DNA of 23,247 nucleotides from a virus: positions 1-23,247 of the IMG/VR virus record IMGVR_UViG_3300037189_002147. The stretch is one strand, 5' to 3'. The position numbers were made by a program, and so were the translations under genes. The first letter of the stretch is position 1, and the number at the start of each line of letters is the position of its first letter. Under the pieces are notes generated by a model that saw nothing but the letters and a program-made list of their open reading frames with translations, had not been told where the DNA came from and made no database searches. Below are positions 7,409 to 22,155 of the stretch, piece by piece.

Positions 7409-7484
7409 TGGCGGCGGGTGGTAGGAGTCGAACCTACTTCTCAAGGTTTTGGAGACCCGCGGATTACCGGTTTCCCTCACCCCC
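7409..7484 (-). tRNA. tRNA-Trp (anticodon CCA) with a bulged acceptor stem
   Basis: A tRNA fold on the minus strand. The anticodon loop is CTCCAAA (anticodon CCA at 7452-7450), and the T arm is perfect (GTAGG, TTCGACT, CCTAC). The D loop holds A14, G18 and G19. The acceptor strands GGGGGTG and CACCCGCC pair over all seven positions only if one G (7415) is bulged; then G73 and an encoded CCA follow, as expected for bacterial tRNA-Trp. Without the bulge there is a G-G mismatch and no CCA. The anticodon stem is also weak (C-T mismatch and G-T pair), and position 8 is A rather than T. It may be functional, degenerate, or affected by a one-base sequence error. Confidence 0.75.
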
Positions 7485-7489
7485 ATATC

Positions 7490-7567
7490 TGGTCTAGAAG
7501 GTAGGATTTGAACCTACGACCCCCTGGTTCCAAACCAGGTGCGCTAACCAGGCTGCGCTACTCCTAG
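7490..7567 (-). tRNA. tRNA-Pro (anticodon TGG)
   Basis: A complete 78-nt tRNA on the minus strand: acceptor CTAGGAG with CTTCTAG (one G-T pair), T8, D stem GCGC/GCGC, anticodon arm CCTGG-TTTGGAA-CCAGG with anticodon TGG, T arm GTAGG-TTCAAAT-CCTAC, A73 and an encoded CCA. Its first four bases overlap the end of the protein gene at 7564, including that gene's TAG stop. tRNA-Trp follows after a 5-nt gap. Confidence 0.95.
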
Positions 7568-8109
7568 ATAATCCAAGCAGGAGCATCACGCTTTGTCCAC
7601 TTGTGTAAATTTGCTTTGCCGTATTTATAGTAGTTTCGATAGTTATCTACCGGATTATCAGAAATAATTAACTCTTTTGGCATACAAGACGGCATAGGAG
7701 TCATATCCCAGTCCTTGACACCGAAGGGAGGCGATTGAATTTCGAACGCCATCTTAGTCATTGTCAAATGCTTTTTGCCATATCGATAAGTATACTCGTT
7801 GGAAAGAGCAAAAAGATGTTCTACCAACCAATTATAATTTTCGACTGACTGCCTTGCCCAGATAGCAGATGGATGATTGATATGCGTAGCGCTGTAAAAG
7901 ATATCATTACGCTCATCATCAAGGACCCATACTTTTTTCTTACGAGTCTTGCCATCCTTTGCTAGAGTCACTTCTAGTTGCAACCCATCTATAACCCGAT
8001 GGGCAGTAGAAAGCAGTTGTGCTGATTCTAGGATCATTTTCACAACATGCTTGTCTACCATCATCTGTGCTGCTTTGACGGGATCCTCATCAATATAAAA
8101 GATATTCAC
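7564..8109 (-). CDS. Conserved phage protein of unknown function (DKHxxKMxLE family)
   Basis: A 181-residue protein with a GTG start coupled as GTGA to the SGNH hydrolase stop. It carries the motifs NIFYIDEDPVKAAQMM, DKHVVKMILESAQLLSTAH, HINHPSAIWARQSVENYNWL, EYTYRYGK, YRNYY and KWTKRDAPAW. This pattern is familiar from many large and T4-like phages, where it is annotated hypothetical. The conserved His, Asp, Lys and Trp residues suggest an enzyme or a nucleic-acid binder, but I know of no proven function. Its stop codon lies inside the tRNA-Pro gene. Confidence 0.85.
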   Translation of the reverse strand: MNIFYIDEDPVKAAQMMVDKHVVKMILESAQLLSTAHRVIDGLQLEVTLAKDGKTRKKKVWVLDDERNDIFYSATHINHPSAIWARQSVENYNWLVEHLFALSNEYTYRYGKKHLTMTKMAFEIQSPPFGVKDWDMTPMPSCMPKELIISDNPVDNYRNYYKYGKANLHKWTKRDAPAWII

Positions 8110-8625: not shown

Positions 8626-9858
8626 CTACCCCTTCACACAAACAACTTGCTTCAACGTATGGACAATATCAACATGGTCAGCTTGGGCTGCCATCACGGC
8701 ATCAATGTCCTTATACGCCATCGGCGTTTCATCAATAACATCCTTGTCAACTCGACACTCAATACCAGCAACAGCTTGAGCGTGATCTTCTAGGGAAAAG
8801 GTCTTCTTTGCCTCATTGCGAGACATCTTCCGACCAGCGCCGTGAGAACACGAACATACTGAGTCAACTAGCCCACGTCCAGCACGACCCCGCACAATGA
8901 ACGATTTAGCGCCCATTGAACCCGGAATGATACCAAGCGTGTCTGGATCGATACGAACAGCACCCTTACGGGTAACCATCAGATCTTCACCGAAGTGCCG
9001 CTCATGTGCCACGTAGTTATGGTGGCAGTTAACGGCATGTTCATCGATAGCAAACTCCTTCGGAACAGATGCACTAAGAGCCTTTAGGGCTGCTTGCATC
9101 ATGATCTCACGGTTCATCTGAGCGAACTTCTGAGCCCAGTTAAGAGCCTTCCAGTAGTCGTTAAAGTTTTCAGAACCTTCAACAAGATATGCTAGATCCT
9201 GATCGGGAAGATTGATGAACCAACGGCGCATATCCTCCTTTGCCTTCTCGATGAAGTAGGAACCAATGCGGTTACCAATCCCACGAGAACCAGAGTGTAA
9301 CATGATCCACACTGCTTGATTTTCATCAAGACAAACCTCAACGAAGTGGTTACCTCCGCCAAGCGTGCCAAGATGGTGTGCAGAGCGTTCTGCTGCTTGA
9401 GCAATCTTTGGATGCTTTGCTACGATCTGCTCAAGTCCCATTGACATAGTAGTATCACGGAACCGAAAAGCAACAGCATCAGGCACAGTGTCCCAAGCAC
9501 CGCGGTCACCCGGCTTGCCGTCATTGGTGCGTCCATGCGGAATTGCCTTTTCTAGCGCAGTCCGAAGACCGAACAAATTATCCGGCAAGTCAGAAGCAGT
9601 AAGCGTAGTGCGAACTGCCATCATACCACAACCAATATCAACGCCGACTGCTGCTGGAATGATTGCACCCTTGGTCGGAATAACCGAGCCAACAGTAGCA
9701 CCCATGCCCCAGTGAACATCCGGCATAACTGCCAAATGCGGGCGAACAAACGGCATACCAGCGATGTTATCGAGTTGTGCCCGAGCAGCATCTTCTAGCT
9801 GAACGCCATCGATCCATGCCTTGATTAGCCCTCCTTGAGAACCCTGAAAAACTTGCAC
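8626..9858 (-). CDS. rtcB: RtcB-type RNA ligase
   Basis: A 410-residue RtcB ligase, which joins RNA 2',3'-cyclic phosphate or 3'-phosphate ends to 5'-OH ends using GTP and Mn(II). The family motifs are all visible: PDVHWGMGATVG (46-57), GVDIGCGM with Asp74 and Cys77, LGGGNHF with His171, HSGSRGIGN with His188, HHNY with His280, SCSHGAGR with His339 (the guanylylated residue), and ETPMAYKDI near the C terminus. The start is GTG with AGGAG 9 nt upstream. It shares an operon with two tRNAs, which suggests repair of RNAs, perhaps tRNAs cut by host defence nucleases. That role is inferred. Confidence 0.97.
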   Translation of the reverse strand: MQVFQGSQGGLIKAWIDGVQLEDAARAQLDNIAGMPFVRPHLAVMPDVHWGMGATVGSVIPTKGAIIPAAVGVDIGCGMMAVRTTLTASDLPDNLFGLRTALEKAIPHGRTNDGKPGDRGAWDTVPDAVAFRFRDTTMSMGLEQIVAKHPKIAQAAERSAHHLGTLGGGNHFVEVCLDENQAVWIMLHSGSRGIGNRIGSYFIEKAKEDMRRWFINLPDQDLAYLVEGSENFNDYWKALNWAQKFAQMNREIMMQAALKALSASVPKEFAIDEHAVNCHHNYVAHERHFGEDLMVTRKGAVRIDPDTLGIIPGSMGAKSFIVRGRAGRGLVDSVCSCSHGAGRKMSRNEAKKTFSLEDHAQAVAGIECRVDKDVIDETPMAYKDIDAVMAAQADHVDIVHTLKQVVCVKG

Positions 9859-15840: not shown

Positions 15841-15851
15841 AATTTATTTCC

Positions 15852-16088
15852 TTACTTGCACAAACGGATGAGACGAGCAACATCCTTATCCTGGTAGTCA
15901 CCAGTTTCAACCCAAACACGCATTGCAACGCACTCAGTGTAGTTACGACCACATTCATTCATATTAGGGCAACTATCACAGGGAAGCTCACGCTTATTCT
16001 CAGGGGTATTGAGAATCATCTGCGAATGTTTACACGGACCATTCATGAAGCTCATATCGGTCGGTATCGAAAAGTTTTCTAGAGACAT
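15852..16088 (-). CDS. Small Cys-rich (possibly zinc-binding) protein
   Basis: A 78-residue protein with Cys19, Cys37, Cys40, Cys46, Cys53 and Cys77. The CDSC-x5-C-x6-C cluster looks like a zinc or iron-sulphur site and is followed by MRVWVETGDYQDKDVARLIR. Proteins of this plan occur in T4-like phages without known function. AAGGAAA precedes the ATG. First gene after the promoter at 16122-16149. Confidence 0.75.
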   Translation of the reverse strand: MSLENFSIPTDMSFMNGPCKHSQMILNTPENKRELPCDSCPNMNECGRNYTECVAMRVWVETGDYQDKDVARLIRLCK

Positions 16089-16121
16089 AATATATTTCCT
16101 TATTTCACTGCTACATTACTG

Positions 16122-16149
16122 ATTATACACGGATTCGAATTAATGTCAA
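16122..16149 (-). promoter_or_regulatory. Early promoter with consensus -10 (TTGACA - 16 - TATAAT)
   Basis: Minus-strand TTGACATTAATTCG followed after 16 nt by TATAAT. It is the only member of the local promoter family with a perfect -10, and it lacks the TA[A/C]TGT and TATAGGATG parts. It serves the genes at 16088 and 15840. Confidence 0.88.
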
Positions 16150-16154
16150 CCATA

Positions 16155-16340
16155 TTATGCGAAAGCGAGGTAAGGACCTGCATCCAATGCTCGTTCTTCA
16201 ATCCGGTAGGCATCGAACCCACGCAGGCGGTCATTCGAATGATACAACTGCTGAGCTTCCCAAGCTAGCATCCGCGAAGAATACACACCGAGGACCAATT
16301 CACCTTCGTAATCAATCACACCTAGAAGCACATACAACAT
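16155..16340 (-). CDS. Small conserved phage protein of unknown function
   Basis: A 61-residue protein starting MLYVLLGVIDYEGELVLGVY, then SSRMLAWEAQQ and a final FDAYRIEERALD. The strand-strand-helix-strand pattern resembles short phage proteins that report under hypothetical. AGGAG sits 8 nt before the ATG. It is alone behind the promoter at 16372-16400. Confidence 0.7.
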   Translation of the reverse strand: MLYVLLGVIDYEGELVLGVYSSRMLAWEAQQLYHSNDRLRGFDAYRIEERALDAGPYLAFA

Positions 16341-16371
16341 TTCAAAACTCCTTCAATTCATCCTATAATTG

Positions 16372-16400
16372 ACAGTAGCACATATTAGAATTAATGTCAA
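16372..16400 (-). promoter_or_regulatory. Early promoter (TTGACA - 17 - TACTGT)
   Basis: Minus-strand TTGACATTAATTC, 17-nt spacer, TACTGT, then AATTATAGGATGAATTGAAG and AGGAG. It lies right after the terminator of the small RNA and drives the 61-residue gene. Confidence 0.88.
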
Positions 16401-16435
16401 GCGTTCTTTTCAAAAAAACACAATCTTTTTAGCCC

Positions 16436-16466
16436 AAAAAAAGGGCGACCCTTTCGAGCCGCCCTT
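16436..16466 (-). terminator. Rho-independent terminator of the late small RNA
   Basis: Minus-strand AAGGGCGGC pairs with GTCGCCCTT (one G-T pair) around an 8-nt loop, and a run of T follows. It lies about 2 nt past the closing helix of the small RNA. Confidence 0.9.
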
Positions 16467-16574
16467 CTGTGCATGAACGGGAGGAACCCCACCTGCCTTG
16501 CGGCTTCCCCGTTAATTCCATGTTGCCTAAGCATCTTGCCACTAGTATGATCTAGTCATACTTACATGCACTAG
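16441..16574 (-). ncRNA. Putative phage small RNA with its own late promoter and terminator
   Basis: Between a TATAAATA box and a terminator lies a stretch of about 134 nt with no plausible ORF on the minus strand and a compact fold. P1 is a perfect 7-bp closing stem (GTGCATG 16571-16565 with CATGCAC 16475-16469). P2 is GTATGA/TCATAC (16561-16545, 5-nt loop). A small hairpin TGC-TTAG-GCA follows. P3 is AACGGG/CCCGTT (16513-16508 with 16481-16476), extended by GAA/TTC past a bulge, and tipped by GCC-GCAA-GGC, a GNRA tetraloop. P3 abuts P1 directly and could stack on it as in a tRNA, but no T loop or CCA is present. No known RNA class is recognised. Confidence 0.65.
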
Positions 16575-16579
16575 CACTT

Positions 16580-16587
16580 TATTTATA
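16580..16587 (-). promoter_or_regulatory. T4-type late promoter box before the small RNA (TATAAATA)
   Basis: The minus strand reads TATAAATA 8 nt after the stop of the 75-residue gene. The first downstream features are the small-RNA stem P1 and a terminator, not a gene, so the box is best read as driving the RNA. Confidence 0.7.
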
Positions 16588-16594
16588 TAAATTT

Positions 16595-16822
16595 TTATGC
16601 CATTTGAGGATTTTTTTTAATTTTCTGCAAAAAAAATGCAGGTGTGGTGCCATCAAAGGCGCCGCCAAAGTTAAGATGCCGAAGCATCTCTTTAGCCTTC
16701 TTCATTGGCAACTTCTCTGCTACGATCTGACTTGTCTTGAGCTCCAAGATATCGCCACCAATTTCAACGTAACTTGTATTAATATCGATCATCTGTTCAT
16801 TCGTAATCTTGTAGTTAACCAT
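16595..16822 (-). CDS. Small hypothetical protein after the helicase
   Basis: A 75-residue protein from the ATG at 16822, with AGGAG 7 nt upstream and 10 nt after the helicase stop. It starts MVNYKITNEQMIDINTSYVE and ends FFLQKIKKNPQMA, with a central basic helix (PMKKAKEMLRHLN). It could be a helicase accessory factor by position, but there is no motif to show it. Confidence 0.7.
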   Translation of the reverse strand: MVNYKITNEQMIDINTSYVEIGGDILELKTSQIVAEKLPMKKAKEMLRHLNFGGAFDGTTPAFFLQKIKKNPQMA

Positions 16823-16832
16823 CACTCTTCTC

Positions 16833-18236
16833 CTATGTAAAATCAGCAAACTTCTGTTTAAACTTAGACATCTTACCTTCTTCATTCATACGTTGACCAA
16901 CTTGGGTATAATCCATCACTGGTCCATCTAGAATGTCCTTTTGTGCTTCTTGTTCAGTATCATACAACCTCATCTTGGATTTGTCAACACCAATAACGAA
17001 CCTTTTATAATGATCGGGGTCATTATATCGATTCTTCAACTGCTTTACCATTATCTGACCTAGATCTGCTAATTCCTCAGATGAGATCAAAGCAAACATG
17101 AAGTCAGCGGTAGCAGGCAAACCAAATGATTCTGATGTATCCTCGAGTCCTACATCTGAGTTACCGAAACCACTACGAGTGGTCTGAGTAGCAGACATGA
17201 TAGGAACATTAAACTCAACTGCCAAGCCACGAAGTTCTTCTGCAATTGCTTTAATGTAGGTGTATGAATTGACATTCGACCCCTGTTTAATCCGCGAGGA
17301 GGTGCAGATATTCAGGTAGTCGATATAGATAATGCTAGGAACAAAGTTCTTCTTGATCTTCAATTCATTTAGAAGATGGCGGAAGTTCGCTGAACCAGCA
17401 CTAGCGGTAGGGTATTCTTTGACAATCAACTTGCCTTTACACTTTTCCTTGAGTCGTCCCATACGCTTGAAATAAGTCTCGTTGGGGACAAGAGCCAATT
17501 CGCCGATAGGAATATCAAGTAGGTTTGCGTCAATACGCTCTGCAACCTTTTCTTCAGCAAGCTCTAACGTAATGTAGAGAACATTCTTGCCATCCATTAG
17601 GTTTGCTGCAGCGCAGTGACACATGAACAGAGATTTACCAACGCCGGTACCTGCAAGAGCAATATTCAGTGTCTTGTTCGGCAATCCGCCGTTGGTAATC
17701 TTGTTGAAGTAATCTAGATCAAACGTAGTGCGCTGTTCCTTCATACGATAGAAGTCAAAACGCTCTTGGGCATCATCTAGAAAGTCATGCCCGATTGATG
17801 TATCAAACGATACACCCAAGGCATCCGACAGGATCTGAGGGATACTACCTTTCGATAGTTCACCCTTCTTATCATCAAGAATCTTGATAGATTCCATGAT
17901 AGCATTGTAGATAGCTTTGTCTTGACAAAACTTCTCAGTGGTATCAATCAACCATTCAACATTATTTTCATCTGACTGTGGTGCAGTGATCTCAGCGATC
18001 AATGTCTCACAAGCAGTAAATTCATCACTACTCAGATTACTGCGGTTACTTAGGTCTACGAGAAGTGCGTCCCGACTAGGGAAAGCATTGTAGGAATTAA
18101 CATAGTCGCCAATAAGTTCGAAGATAACCTTATCGGAACGATTATGGAAGTATTCAGTGCTGAGGAATGGAATTGCTTTCCTGCCAAAGTCATCATTGCT
18201 GATGAGGTTGGACAGGATTACTGTTTCCGTCCGCAT
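16833..18236 (-). CDS. DnaB-type replicative helicase (T4 gp41-like)
   Basis: A 467-residue ring helicase, near the 475 of T4 gp41. The N-terminal half is the primase-interacting domain. The RecA-like core has Walker A AGTGVGKS (195-202), TLELAEEK (223-230), Walker B IIYIDYLN (302-309, Asp306) and the SATQTTRSG motif (348-356). It unwinds the lagging-strand template 5' to 3' using NTPs and works with a primase. It follows uvsX after 3 nt, the T4-like order, and is probably transcribed from the promoter at 19337-19365. Confidence 0.95.
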   Translation of the reverse strand: MRTETVILSNLISNDDFGRKAIPFLSTEYFHNRSDKVIFELIGDYVNSYNAFPSRDALLVDLSNRSNLSSDEFTACETLIAEITAPQSDENNVEWLIDTTEKFCQDKAIYNAIMESIKILDDKKGELSKGSIPQILSDALGVSFDTSIGHDFLDDAQERFDFYRMKEQRTTFDLDYFNKITNGGLPNKTLNIALAGTGVGKSLFMCHCAAANLMDGKNVLYITLELAEEKVAERIDANLLDIPIGELALVPNETYFKRMGRLKEKCKGKLIVKEYPTASAGSANFRHLLNELKIKKNFVPSIIYIDYLNICTSSRIKQGSNVNSYTYIKAIAEELRGLAVEFNVPIMSATQTTRSGFGNSDVGLEDTSESFGLPATADFMFALISSEELADLGQIMVKQLKNRYNDPDHYKRFVIGVDKSKMRLYDTEQEAQKDILDGPVMDYTQVGQRMNEEGKMSKFKQKFADFT

Positions 18237-18239
18237 GTA

Positions 18240-19310
18240 TTATTCCTCCAGGATTGTATCGTATACTTCGCTCACTGTTTCCTCGTCATGCATAATTGCA
18301 CCATGGGCAATCTGATACCGATTCTTAACCCACTCATTAAACTTAGGACATGCTAGGACAGGTTCCCAGAAATCCTTTGTTTCAGTTTCCTTAAAGCGAT
18401 ATTTCTTCTCTAGGATCTCACCTGTTGACATATCAACCTGCTGATACCAACCATTGCTTGGTTTAATAACATGACCAGATTCCATCGCCATATCGAGCAG
18501 ACCCGACCACCTACTGATACCATCTTCATATGATACAGTGACTGGGATCTTCGACTTCTCACGAACAAAGCGTGACTTCTCAACGTTGATGATGAACGAC
18601 CATCCACTTACTTCAGTGCCTGTCTTTTCCTGTTGACGACCAACAATAAAGATGTTATCGGCGCTGTAATATGAACCAGTACCACCGCCAACAATCGCCT
18701 TCGGGAACATACCGATTTCCATATAGGTGTGATTGATAACAATCATAGGAATGTTCTTGATAGTCAACTGTGGTGTAACGATACGAAACAGCGACTTAAT
18801 CGCCTTCGCTCGTGACATATCGGCAACTGACTTCTCATTCATAGCATCTTCGGTTTCCTTCTTTGATGCTAGGTTGCCGATAGAGTCAATAACAATGACA
18901 ACATGATCCTTGCGGTCAATATCATTCAACTGATTGACTAGATCGAACTTCAACTGCTCAACGTCAGTCACGGGGGTATGAAGAACCCGCTTCTTATCGA
19001 TACCAAATGAGTCAAAGTATGCTCGCGGTGTGCCAAACTCAGAGTCATAATATAGCAGAATAGAATCAGGATACTGATCCATATATGCCTTTGCCATCAA
19101 CAGCGAAAACGCTGTCTTGAAGTGCTTTGATGGGCCTGCCCACATAGTAAGGCCTGGTGTGAACCCGCCGGTAAGCGAACCGGACAATGCAACATTCATC
19201 ACAGGAACAGACGTTGTGATCATATCCTTATCGGCAAAGAACTTAGAGTCCTCAAGCACATCTGTTAGTTTAATCGTGGAATTCTTTTGTAGTTTATCAA
19301 TTAGTGACAT
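18240..19310 (-). CDS. uvsX: UvsX recombinase (RecA-like)
   Basis: A 356-residue strand-exchange protein, close in length to T4 UvsX (391). Walker A is AGPSKHFKT (about 58-66), followed by QYPDSILLYYDSEFG and Walker B VVIVIDSIGNLAS with KKETEDAMNEK. Further UvsX blocks are RAKAIKSLFRIVTP, INHTY, VGGGTGSYYSADNIF and NVEKSRFVREKSKIP. It coats single-stranded DNA and drives recombination-dependent replication and repair. AGGAG lies 6 nt before the ATG, behind its own early promoter. Confidence 0.97.
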   Translation of the reverse strand: MSLIDKLQKNSTIKLTDVLEDSKFFADKDMITTSVPVMNVALSGSLTGGFTPGLTMWAGPSKHFKTAFSLLMAKAYMDQYPDSILLYYDSEFGTPRAYFDSFGIDKKRVLHTPVTDVEQLKFDLVNQLNDIDRKDHVVIVIDSIGNLASKKETEDAMNEKSVADMSRAKAIKSLFRIVTPQLTIKNIPMIVINHTYMEIGMFPKAIVGGGTGSYYSADNIFIVGRQQEKTGTEVSGWSFIINVEKSRFVREKSKIPVTVSYEDGISRWSGLLDMAMESGHVIKPSNGWYQQVDMSTGEILEKKYRFKETETKDFWEPVLACPKFNEWVKNRYQIAHGAIMHDEETVSEVYDTILEE

Positions 19311-19638: not shown

Positions 19639-22155
19639 TCATGCAAAGAAACTATCTAGGTTGGATTTCTTCTCGATATCCCACCGGATAGCTTCTGTAA
19701 TACTAGTTAGTGGTGAGATAAACGTTTTCTCAAACTGCATATCACGGTCAATGTATCGGTCAAGGCCTAACTCAGGAGGCAGTCGACTTGGGAACGTGAT
19801 AACATCAACTCGATGAGGATTAGGTTTCTTAAGATAACAGAACTTAATCTTCTCACCATTGTTGATGGGTTGATATTTATCAGTCAATTTCATCGACTTG
19901 AGCAAGTGATTATAAATCAGTGCGCCCTTCACATGAACAGGTGTTGACTTCTTCCAGATGGTAGCAGCATCACGCCACTTGCCTAGTCCTCGAACACCGC
20001 GAGGAAAGGATATATCTTCAACAGGCAAATTGATGAACGTATCACGGAACTCAGCGACATAGTTCTGCAGATCGATCTCTGTCTTATTCATAATCAACTT
20101 AAGCGCATCGATAATTGCTTTTCGGCAAACCATCGGTGTAGAAGTTCGAATAGCCTCGATGCCTTTCATCTTCAACTTGGGTTCATCATAGGCGACACCT
20201 TCCTCATTATAGACGTTGAGGATATACATCTTCTTGGCTTTCCAGATGCCCTTGTTGGCAATTGACTCGCGCTTCATCACCATCTTCTGAGCATACGCAT
20301 TGACATACTCAGCGAGTTCACCATACTTCTTATCAATGAATGGTTCAAGCGCATCATTGGCAACTTTGTCTAGAAACTTGACGATCTTTTGAATATCAGT
20401 TTCACCGGGCATGCTTTGTTGAACCAAACCATCAAGAGTAAGATATACGGAGTCAGTATCGCAAGCGATAACGTAGTCCTTCTTCTTTGTCTTTAGCAAC
20501 TTGTTCAGATAATCATTCAGTTCACGCTCGATCCACATGGTTGACAACTGACCAGACGAGGTGATACCTTCAGCGAAGTCAAGTTCGAACCAGCGGAAAT
20601 ACTTATTTGCCAAGGCACCATAAGCTGAGTTCAACTGAATCTTCTTTGCCTGTTGCAGGTTGTGGAATCGAGCAGCATCCTTGTCTGCTTGAATTGCCTC
20701 CTTCGAACCCTTAGGCGCTGCTGCTAGAGCCTTCTTCGCCTCAATCATCTGCTTCTTATAGACGACTCGGTCGTCATACATCTTTGACATTAGACGAGGA
20801 AGGAACCCTTGCTTTTCTTTTGAGAACATACACATGTTAGCAGTTACTGCAACATTGTTCTCTTTCATGTAGTCCTTATACTGGTTCAAACTTCCGTTGA
20901 GAACATCCGTAACCGAAAGCGAACCAGGCAACTTACCGCGGAAGGTCTCGGTCGAGATATTATACTGCATGATGATATGGGGATACAGCGAGTTCAAGTC
21001 AAGAGACACAACCCACTTATGTTCACCAACTTGAACGTCCTTAACGTAACCACCCATGATAGAATGGTCAGTAAAGGATTCTTTGAACTGTGGGATAACA
21101 ATGTTTCGGTCAAGTAGATAATTGTGAATGATAACATCCCATGGTCGCACAGTAGCAAAGGTGTCCTGATAGTTAACCTTAGCATCATAGGCGACTGCCA
21201 TGACCAGTTCAATCATCTTCAACTTATCGTCAAGTCGCTCAACCAGTTCAACATCTCGGATGTTATACTCAATATACTTCTGGTAGTTATCACGATACAA
21301 ACCATTCAGACCATCGAACTCAGAATAGTCAAGCTTACGCTCACCTAGTTCGTAGTTAGCAATATGATCAAGTGTATAAGACTCATGGGGAGTAAAAGAA
21401 AACTTGCGGTACAAAGCAAGATAATCAAGAACAGTGATACCTGCTGGAATATACGCTTGCTGCTTTCTGCCGCGCACTTCAATTTGTGTTTCGTTTAGAA
21501 TTCCCCAAGGAGAGAGTTTACGAGCAACCCCGTCACCGAGCACTCGATTAATACGATTGACTAGATAAGGAACGTCAAAGAATTCTACGTTCCAACCAGT
21601 GACAATATCAGGCGAATATGTAGGACCACACCAAAGGTCAATGAATACCTGCAGTAGTGCTGCCTCGTCCTTACAACGATAATACTTGATGTTAGGTTGA
21701 TGTTCTTTATACTCACCACAACCTAGAACAACCTTTTGCCCATCTCGACCAAGTGTGATAGCAGTTACTTCATTCATTGCCGTCTCAATCTCGGGCATCG
21801 AATCTGTGATATCAACTTCAATATCGATAGTAACAACAGAAACAAGAGCAGGATCATACTGGATCTCACCCTTATAACTATCGTAGATGTAGGTATACTG
21901 AAAGTTGTTCAACCCGTAGATGGTAAAGTTATCGACTGCCTCATAACGTTTGTTAAAGTCACGAGCATCATAAATACTATCGAAATCCATCCGACCTACA
22001 GGTTGACCGTCAAGCGTCTTATAGGCGCCTTCGGGGGATGGGACAAACATATAGGGCTTGTAAGGAACTTTGCGCTGGATGCGCTGACCGTTCTCATATC
22101 CACGGAGTAGAATGTCATTGCGGTTTAGTAGAACATTAGTATAGAAAGCAGACAT
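19639..22155 (-). CDS. Family B DNA polymerase (T4 gp43-like)
   Basis: An 838-residue replicative polymerase, slightly shorter than T4 gp43 (898). The 3'-5' exonuclease has TIDIEVD (Asp111, Glu113), GWNVEFFDVPYL (Asp194) and YNIRD (Asp301). The polymerase motifs are SLDLNSLYP (A, Asp386), KKIQLNSAYGALAN (B, 504-517) and ACDTDS (C, Asp566 and Asp568). The last residues (NLDSFFA) look like a short sliding-clamp-binding tail. TGGAG lies 6 nt before the ATG. All catalytic residues are present, so it should be active and proofreading. First gene of the replication operon. Confidence 0.98.
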   Translation of the reverse strand: MSAFYTNVLLNRNDILLRGYENGQRIQRKVPYKPYMFVPSPEGAYKTLDGQPVGRMDFDSIYDARDFNKRYEAVDNFTIYGLNNFQYTYIYDSYKGEIQYDPALVSVVTIDIEVDITDSMPEIETAMNEVTAITLGRDGQKVVLGCGEYKEHQPNIKYYRCKDEAALLQVFIDLWCGPTYSPDIVTGWNVEFFDVPYLVNRINRVLGDGVARKLSPWGILNETQIEVRGRKQQAYIPAGITVLDYLALYRKFSFTPHESYTLDHIANYELGERKLDYSEFDGLNGLYRDNYQKYIEYNIRDVELVERLDDKLKMIELVMAVAYDAKVNYQDTFATVRPWDVIIHNYLLDRNIVIPQFKESFTDHSIMGGYVKDVQVGEHKWVVSLDLNSLYPHIIMQYNISTETFRGKLPGSLSVTDVLNGSLNQYKDYMKENNVAVTANMCMFSKEKQGFLPRLMSKMYDDRVVYKKQMIEAKKALAAAPKGSKEAIQADKDAARFHNLQQAKKIQLNSAYGALANKYFRWFELDFAEGITSSGQLSTMWIERELNDYLNKLLKTKKKDYVIACDTDSVYLTLDGLVQQSMPGETDIQKIVKFLDKVANDALEPFIDKKYGELAEYVNAYAQKMVMKRESIANKGIWKAKKMYILNVYNEEGVAYDEPKLKMKGIEAIRTSTPMVCRKAIIDALKLIMNKTEIDLQNYVAEFRDTFINLPVEDISFPRGVRGLGKWRDAATIWKKSTPVHVKGALIYNHLLKSMKLTDKYQPINNGEKIKFCYLKKPNPHRVDVITFPSRLPPELGLDRYIDRDMQFEKTFISPLTSITEAIRWDIEKKSNLDSFFA

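Follow-up and report, generated by a model that had tools for sequence, protein, structure and literature searches.

A structured RNA family behind late promoters in T4-like phages

T4-like phages are abundant in water and serve as a model group. Transcription from T4 late promoters starts ~6 bases downstream of the promoter, and the product of a T4 late transcription unit is mRNA; to our knowledge, the accepted T4 programme includes no dedicated structured RNAs of the late phase. The phi29 prohead RNA (pRNA) is a small, stand-alone phage RNA that is made late and carries interlocking complementary loops. Structured RNAs have been described from T4-like cyanophages, namely manA, wcaG, glnA, PhotoRC-II, and CfrI; the first three act as cis-regulatory elements, and CfrI is associated with the psbA region in S-PM2 (PMC2864571, PMC9964418).

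The RNA described here is likewise a structured RNA of T4-like phage genomes, distinct from these five. It resembles phi29 pRNA in being small, stand-alone, structured, and, judging from its promoter, apparently late, but it is unrelated to pRNA in sequence, has a different fold, and lacks the interlocking loops; inspection by eye revealed no complementary conserved loops for ring formation of the phi29 type. The earlier note on this DNA did not recognise the class of the RNA, and neither did an Rfam 15 search at gathering thresholds, which returned no family for it in the window or in 16 loci that carry it. In permissive Rfam searches of the window and several subtypes, the best sub-threshold matches were unrelated small RNAs with E-values of 0.15 or worse, mostly lying on the terminator. 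We therefore consider the family new, in that it has no Rfam 15 match and differs from the published T4-like phage RNAs found in a search of literature largely outside the subscription journals; newness is claimed for the family and not for its mode of action. Being well defined by its fold, promoter, terminator, and conserved residues, the family is directly usable for expression studies, probing, and pull-downs; its covariance model could also serve the annotation of viromes, and it raises the testable question of why late T4-like infection needs an RNA.

A probable transcription unit of its own

The window, by which we mean the whole stretch of 23,247 nucleotides analysed (IMG/VR record IMGVR_UViG_3300037189_002147), carries T4-like replication genes on its minus strand: uvsX (18240–19310) and the gp41 helicase gene (16833–18236), both confirmed by PHROGs, and gp43 (19639–22155), identified by reading its sequence. 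The gp41 gene is followed by c2, a 75-aa ORF (16595–16822, minus strand) with the motif GGxFDGxTPxFF, which falls in PHROG 29065 and has no assigned function. Just beyond c2, the gene-free minus strand from 16587 to 16436 contains an exact T4-type late promoter, a folded body of ~103 nt, and a strong intrinsic terminator, which confirms the promoter, folded RNA, and terminator read in the earlier note. The promoter, TATAAATA (16580–16587), occurs in four exact copies in the window, compared with 0.92 expected from shuffles. Because T4 late promoters start ~6 bases downstream, the RNA is predicted to begin near 16574, ~6 nt past TATAAATA and three bases ahead of the first helix. The unit thus shares with a T4 late transcription unit the promoter just upstream of the predicted start, but its product is a terminated non-coding RNA. 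The body spans 16469–16571 (103 nt, minus strand), and the terminator occupies 16436–16468 as a 13-bp hairpin (16468–16439) followed by U residues to 16436. A strict consensus scan of the window omitted this terminator, probably because its stem extends into the U tract.

Both flanking signals are kept throughout the family. Of 60 distinct cores chosen by body sequence alone, 59 have enough upstream sequence to look for the late promoter, and all 59 have it (2 of 264 control windows); a terminator lies 3′ of the body in 59 of 60 (5 of 277 control stretches). The private late promoter and terminator proposed in the earlier note are thereby supported. Beyond the terminator, 29 of the 60 cores have a second late promoter, compared with 5 of 273 controls. 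In one clade (for example L101, L116, L131, and L172), RNA and gp41 converge, and none of the nearest downstream neighbours is co-oriented with the RNA. The flanking promoter and terminator, together with this clade, indicate that the unit is a gene of its own, and the clade further argues that the RNA is not a leader. All three reading frames of the body are interrupted in most family members, and body lengths are distributed across every remainder modulo 3; the body is therefore non-coding. A gene for a relative of the late coactivator gp33 is present in two carrier contigs, G002 and G003. Taken as a whole, the RNA is very probably a late, free-standing transcript, with its promoter pointing to the timing.

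Covariation and fold

Relatives of gp41 in IMG/VR yielded five sequence classes of the RNA, in which the closing stem is rewritten by compensation (its versions include GUGCAUG/CAUGCAC, AGCGAG/CUCGCU, GUGCGCG/CGCGCAU, and AUGCGUG/CACGCAU). Two-sided changes occurred at 8 pairs in these five founding sequences, compared with 2.4 ± 1.3 in shuffles. The check that the earlier note had suggested, a covariance model made from relatives, was carried out with model R1, built from the window sequence and four close relatives; it detected divergent homologues, ~80 of them distinct, on IMG/VR contigs from uncultured T4-like phages, with E-values down to 5e-11. When 80 distinct members were aligned, all 21 tested pairs showed two-sided compensatory changes, 95.6% of the cells were paired (31–47% with the partners slid), and double changes were found in 427 cells as compared with 115 ± 16 after shuffling. 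This alignment was made with a model, R2, whose P4 and P6 pairs were out of register (the later model is R3); therefore, the 100% and 99% pairing of P4 and P6 is no artefact of fitting. G-U pairs outnumbered A-C mismatches by 91 to 9, which argues that selection acts on this strand as RNA. We are thus nearly certain that this is a real structured RNA family. Folding energy is a weak argument (z = −4.5 for body and terminator together, −1.96 for the body by itself, and values near zero in two relatives), and the case for structure rests on covariation.

The overall fold is a four-helix junction with cloverleaf topology, in which P1 closes the molecule and P4 abuts P1 without a gap. In the window, P1 is a perfect 7-bp stem (all coordinates on the minus strand), with the 5′ strand GUGCAUG at 16565–16571 pairing with CAUGCAC at 16475–16469. 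The earlier note had held that a lack of compensatory changes in P1 and P3 would speak against the structure; P1 clearly has them, at 8 of 8 pairs with 92.8% of cells paired, and P3, a short hairpin of variable length (16521–16535), forms an anchored stem with a mean of 4.26 bp as compared with 3.37 ± 0.11 in shuffled sequences. P2 (16544–16562), separated from P1 by two or three bases, is a hairpin with 7 bp in the window, two-sided changes at 4 of 4 modelled pairs, and 92.2% pairing. The P4 arm (16476–16513) is based on a 6-bp stem, 16513–16508 with 16481–16476, which shows two-sided changes at 6 of 6 pairs and is always paired.

The perfect closing stem, three inner hairpins, GNRA-capped arm, and abutting arm noticed initially were all found, with the inner part of P4 revised by the comparative data into a 3-bp stem carrying the loop UGGGGUU (16494–16482) beside the GNRA hairpin. 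The latter, P5 (16495–16504; GCC-GCAA-GGC), is confined to the window clade and a long clade, is paired in 20 of 20 such sequences, and has a GAAA loop in L002. The former, P6 (16482–16494, loop at 16491–16485), shows two-sided changes at 3 of 3 pairs and 99.2% pairing; the three base pairs beneath the loop vary (CGG/CCG, UGG/CCA, AGG/CCU, CAG/CUG, CCG/CGG, and CAC/GUG), whereas the loop itself is invariant in alignment A3. Two joining strands are also conserved in an alignment of 78 sequences. J2/3 contains GGCA (16537–16540; AGNGGCAAG in the window clade), with GGC invariant and the A kept in at least 90%, and J3/4, which carries GGAA(UAG), contains an invariant GGAA (16516–16519). A pseudoknot between GGAA and UUCC was considered and dropped, since P6 variants without UUCC still keep GGAA. 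In an L017-type subfamily (L017 8455–8600, L023 8770–8915, L234, and L241), the loop is UGGUGGUU and GGCA is missing; R3 matches this subfamily with E-values of 4e-4 to 1.5e-3, and it occupies the same genomic place behind a late promoter.

Distribution, neighbourhood, and relation to tRNA

A strict pattern found 109 matching stretches in viral contigs and none among 84,980 prokaryote species genomes. A covariance search was also run on 16 cultured phages, of which many are T4-like (including T4, KVP40, S-PM2, P-SSM2, P-SSM7, S-SRM01, S-CRM01, HTVC008M, Cr30, phiW-14, DLP6, and phage OC). It gave no convincing match, with a carrier contig as the positive control; a match in S-SRM01 was discounted as a stretch without the loop. 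Stricter filters applied to over 2 million bases of records, so that diverged copies may have escaped. A DNA similarity search with seven members against 50,697 phage records returned short chance matches only. The three large contigs with a match contain one RNA each. Distances between the RNAs correlate with those of gp41 (Mantel r 0.42, p 0.001), a pattern that long vertical descent would produce.

The usual position of the RNA in relatives is just beyond gp41. Its placement within an early gene region, as the earlier note had described it, is correct for the window, where uvsX and gp41 lie upstream and small ORFs downstream, but does not extend to most relatives, in which the RNA lies where the replication genes give way to genes for proteins starting MxxFxxFLxE. 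The N-termini of these proteins suggest late head or internal proteins. In the window, the consecutive small ORFs at 16155–16410 and 15850–16150 (minus strand) are each preceded by a nearly identical promoter-like sequence, TTGACATTAATTC, a pattern suggestive of a duplicated promoter cassette; one small-ORF promoter downstream of the RNA is a perfect TTGACA-16-TATAAT (16149–16122). The c2 gene adjoins the RNA in 63 of 70 carrier loci, near the gp41 end and on either strand relative to the RNA. It was rejected as an obligate partner, as it is missing near 7 of the 70 RNAs and occurs in contigs where the RNA was not found, and no other partner gene was found.

The fold invites comparison with tRNA (RF00005). 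Its cloverleaf topology is that of a tRNA, as supported by covariation in P1, P2, P4, and P6 and by the stem test in P3: a 7-bp closing stem is followed by two nucleotides (mostly UA) and three arms, the last of which abuts the closing stem and ends in a 7-nt loop. By sequence, however, the RNA is not a tRNA. The tRNA covariance model gave no match to the window RNA even at E-values up to 10, and ARAGORN makes no call there; the loop is UGGGGUU instead of the T-loop GTTCRANY, J2/3 and J3/4 are long, and the 3′ strand of P1 runs into the terminator, leaving no CCA or discriminator end. The slot beyond gp41 holds tRNA genes in the cultured cyanophages S-PM2 and S-SRM01 (both read by eye) and Bellamy (annotated), and six non-carrier contigs (L043, L051, L067, L069, L070, and L072) have tRNA genes or clusters downstream of gp41, several at ~0.7–2.7 kb. 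No tRNA gene was found in the stretch beyond gp41 in the 55 carrier loci scanned. The cloverleaf topology and the tRNA genes at the same slot in non-carriers suggest, without proving, a tie to tRNA. Elsewhere in the window, Rfam identifies two tRNA genes (7413–7484 and 7490–7567, minus strand), of which ARAGORN reports only the second, as tRNA-Pro; an exact TATAAATA lies ~55 nt upstream of them at 7629–7622, and a gene for an RtcB-type RNA ligase (8626–9858, minus strand) is nearby.

Possible roles

As the best explanation overall, we favour a free-standing gene for an undescribed T4-like phage RNA that probably acts in trans via a protein. Late in infection, the phage-modified RNA polymerase would start at TATAAATA and halt at the terminator, leaving a presumably stable RNA of ~138 nt. 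This RNA would fold into the four-helix junction, with P1 near the 5′ end, side arms formed by P2 and P3, and P4 set against P1, and would present as its contact surface the unpaired GGCA between P2 and P3, the GGAA between P3 and P4, and the UGGGGUU loop of P6. It may then bind a host or phage protein as a scaffold or decoy, of which a tRNA-like decoy is one version. Near-invariant unpaired residues in a rigid junction, the non-coding body, the lack of a regulated neighbour, and the unenriched complement of the loop together point to a trans-acting, protein-binding RNA. Specifically, carriers show no enrichment of AACCCCA, the complement of the loop: the count is 149, which includes ~97 occurrences in the complement of the RNA itself, and permutations of the same letters average 110. 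Non-carriers have a similar deficit. The lack of enrichment in carriers favours a protein over phage mRNA as the partner. From the conserved unpaired residues and this one negative base-pairing test, we tentatively suggest a protein-binding scaffold or decoy, at slightly less than even chances. The more specific proposal of a late cloverleaf tRNA mimic or RNP scaffold, a new phage RNA class in the slot where some relatives keep tRNA clusters, is rather unlikely; if true, the RNA might, for example, serve as a decoy for a tRNA-attacking or tRNA-handling host enzyme, or form a structural component of the late phage programme.

Similarly improbable is a trans-acting small RNA that, late in infection, would use its UGGGGUU loop to pair with AACCCCA in RNAs of the host or the phage. 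The strictly conserved, exposed, G-rich loop on a covarying stem resembles the seed loops of known bacterial small RNAs, and the U tract of the terminator could bind Hfq. The AACCCCA counts just given speak against such pairing, as do the L017-type subfamily, with UGGUGGUU as its loop, and the conservation of the joining strands, which seed pairing does not explain. A tetramolecular G-quadruplex formed through UGGGGU loops was likewise considered.

A packaging or virion RNA, made late and joined to the capsid or motor like the phi29 prohead RNA, is less probable still. It would fit the late promoter seen in 59 of 59 homologues and, in most relatives, the downstream MxxFxxFLxE genes if their products are indeed head or internal proteins. 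We know of no RNA requirement in T4 packaging, however, and the absence of the family from the 16 cultured phages, many of them T4-like, and of a complementary loop pair for ring formation also weighs against it.

In most relatives, a structured RNA and a terminator precede apparent late genes, an arrangement that would suit a cis-acting leader, attenuator, or antitermination element governing readthrough into those genes, but we regard this as very unlikely. The frequent second late promoter beyond the terminator (29 of 60) speaks against it, the convergent clade offers no co-oriented gene nearby, the next small genes in the window have early-type TTGACA promoters, and the terminator differs even between close relatives (L003 and L004). 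Finally, a cruciform or replication origin acting as DNA, to which the location beside uvsX and gp41 might point, is hardly credible given the promoter and terminator that consistently flank the body and the excess of G-U pairs over A-C mismatches (91 to 9), a sign that selection sees one strand as RNA.
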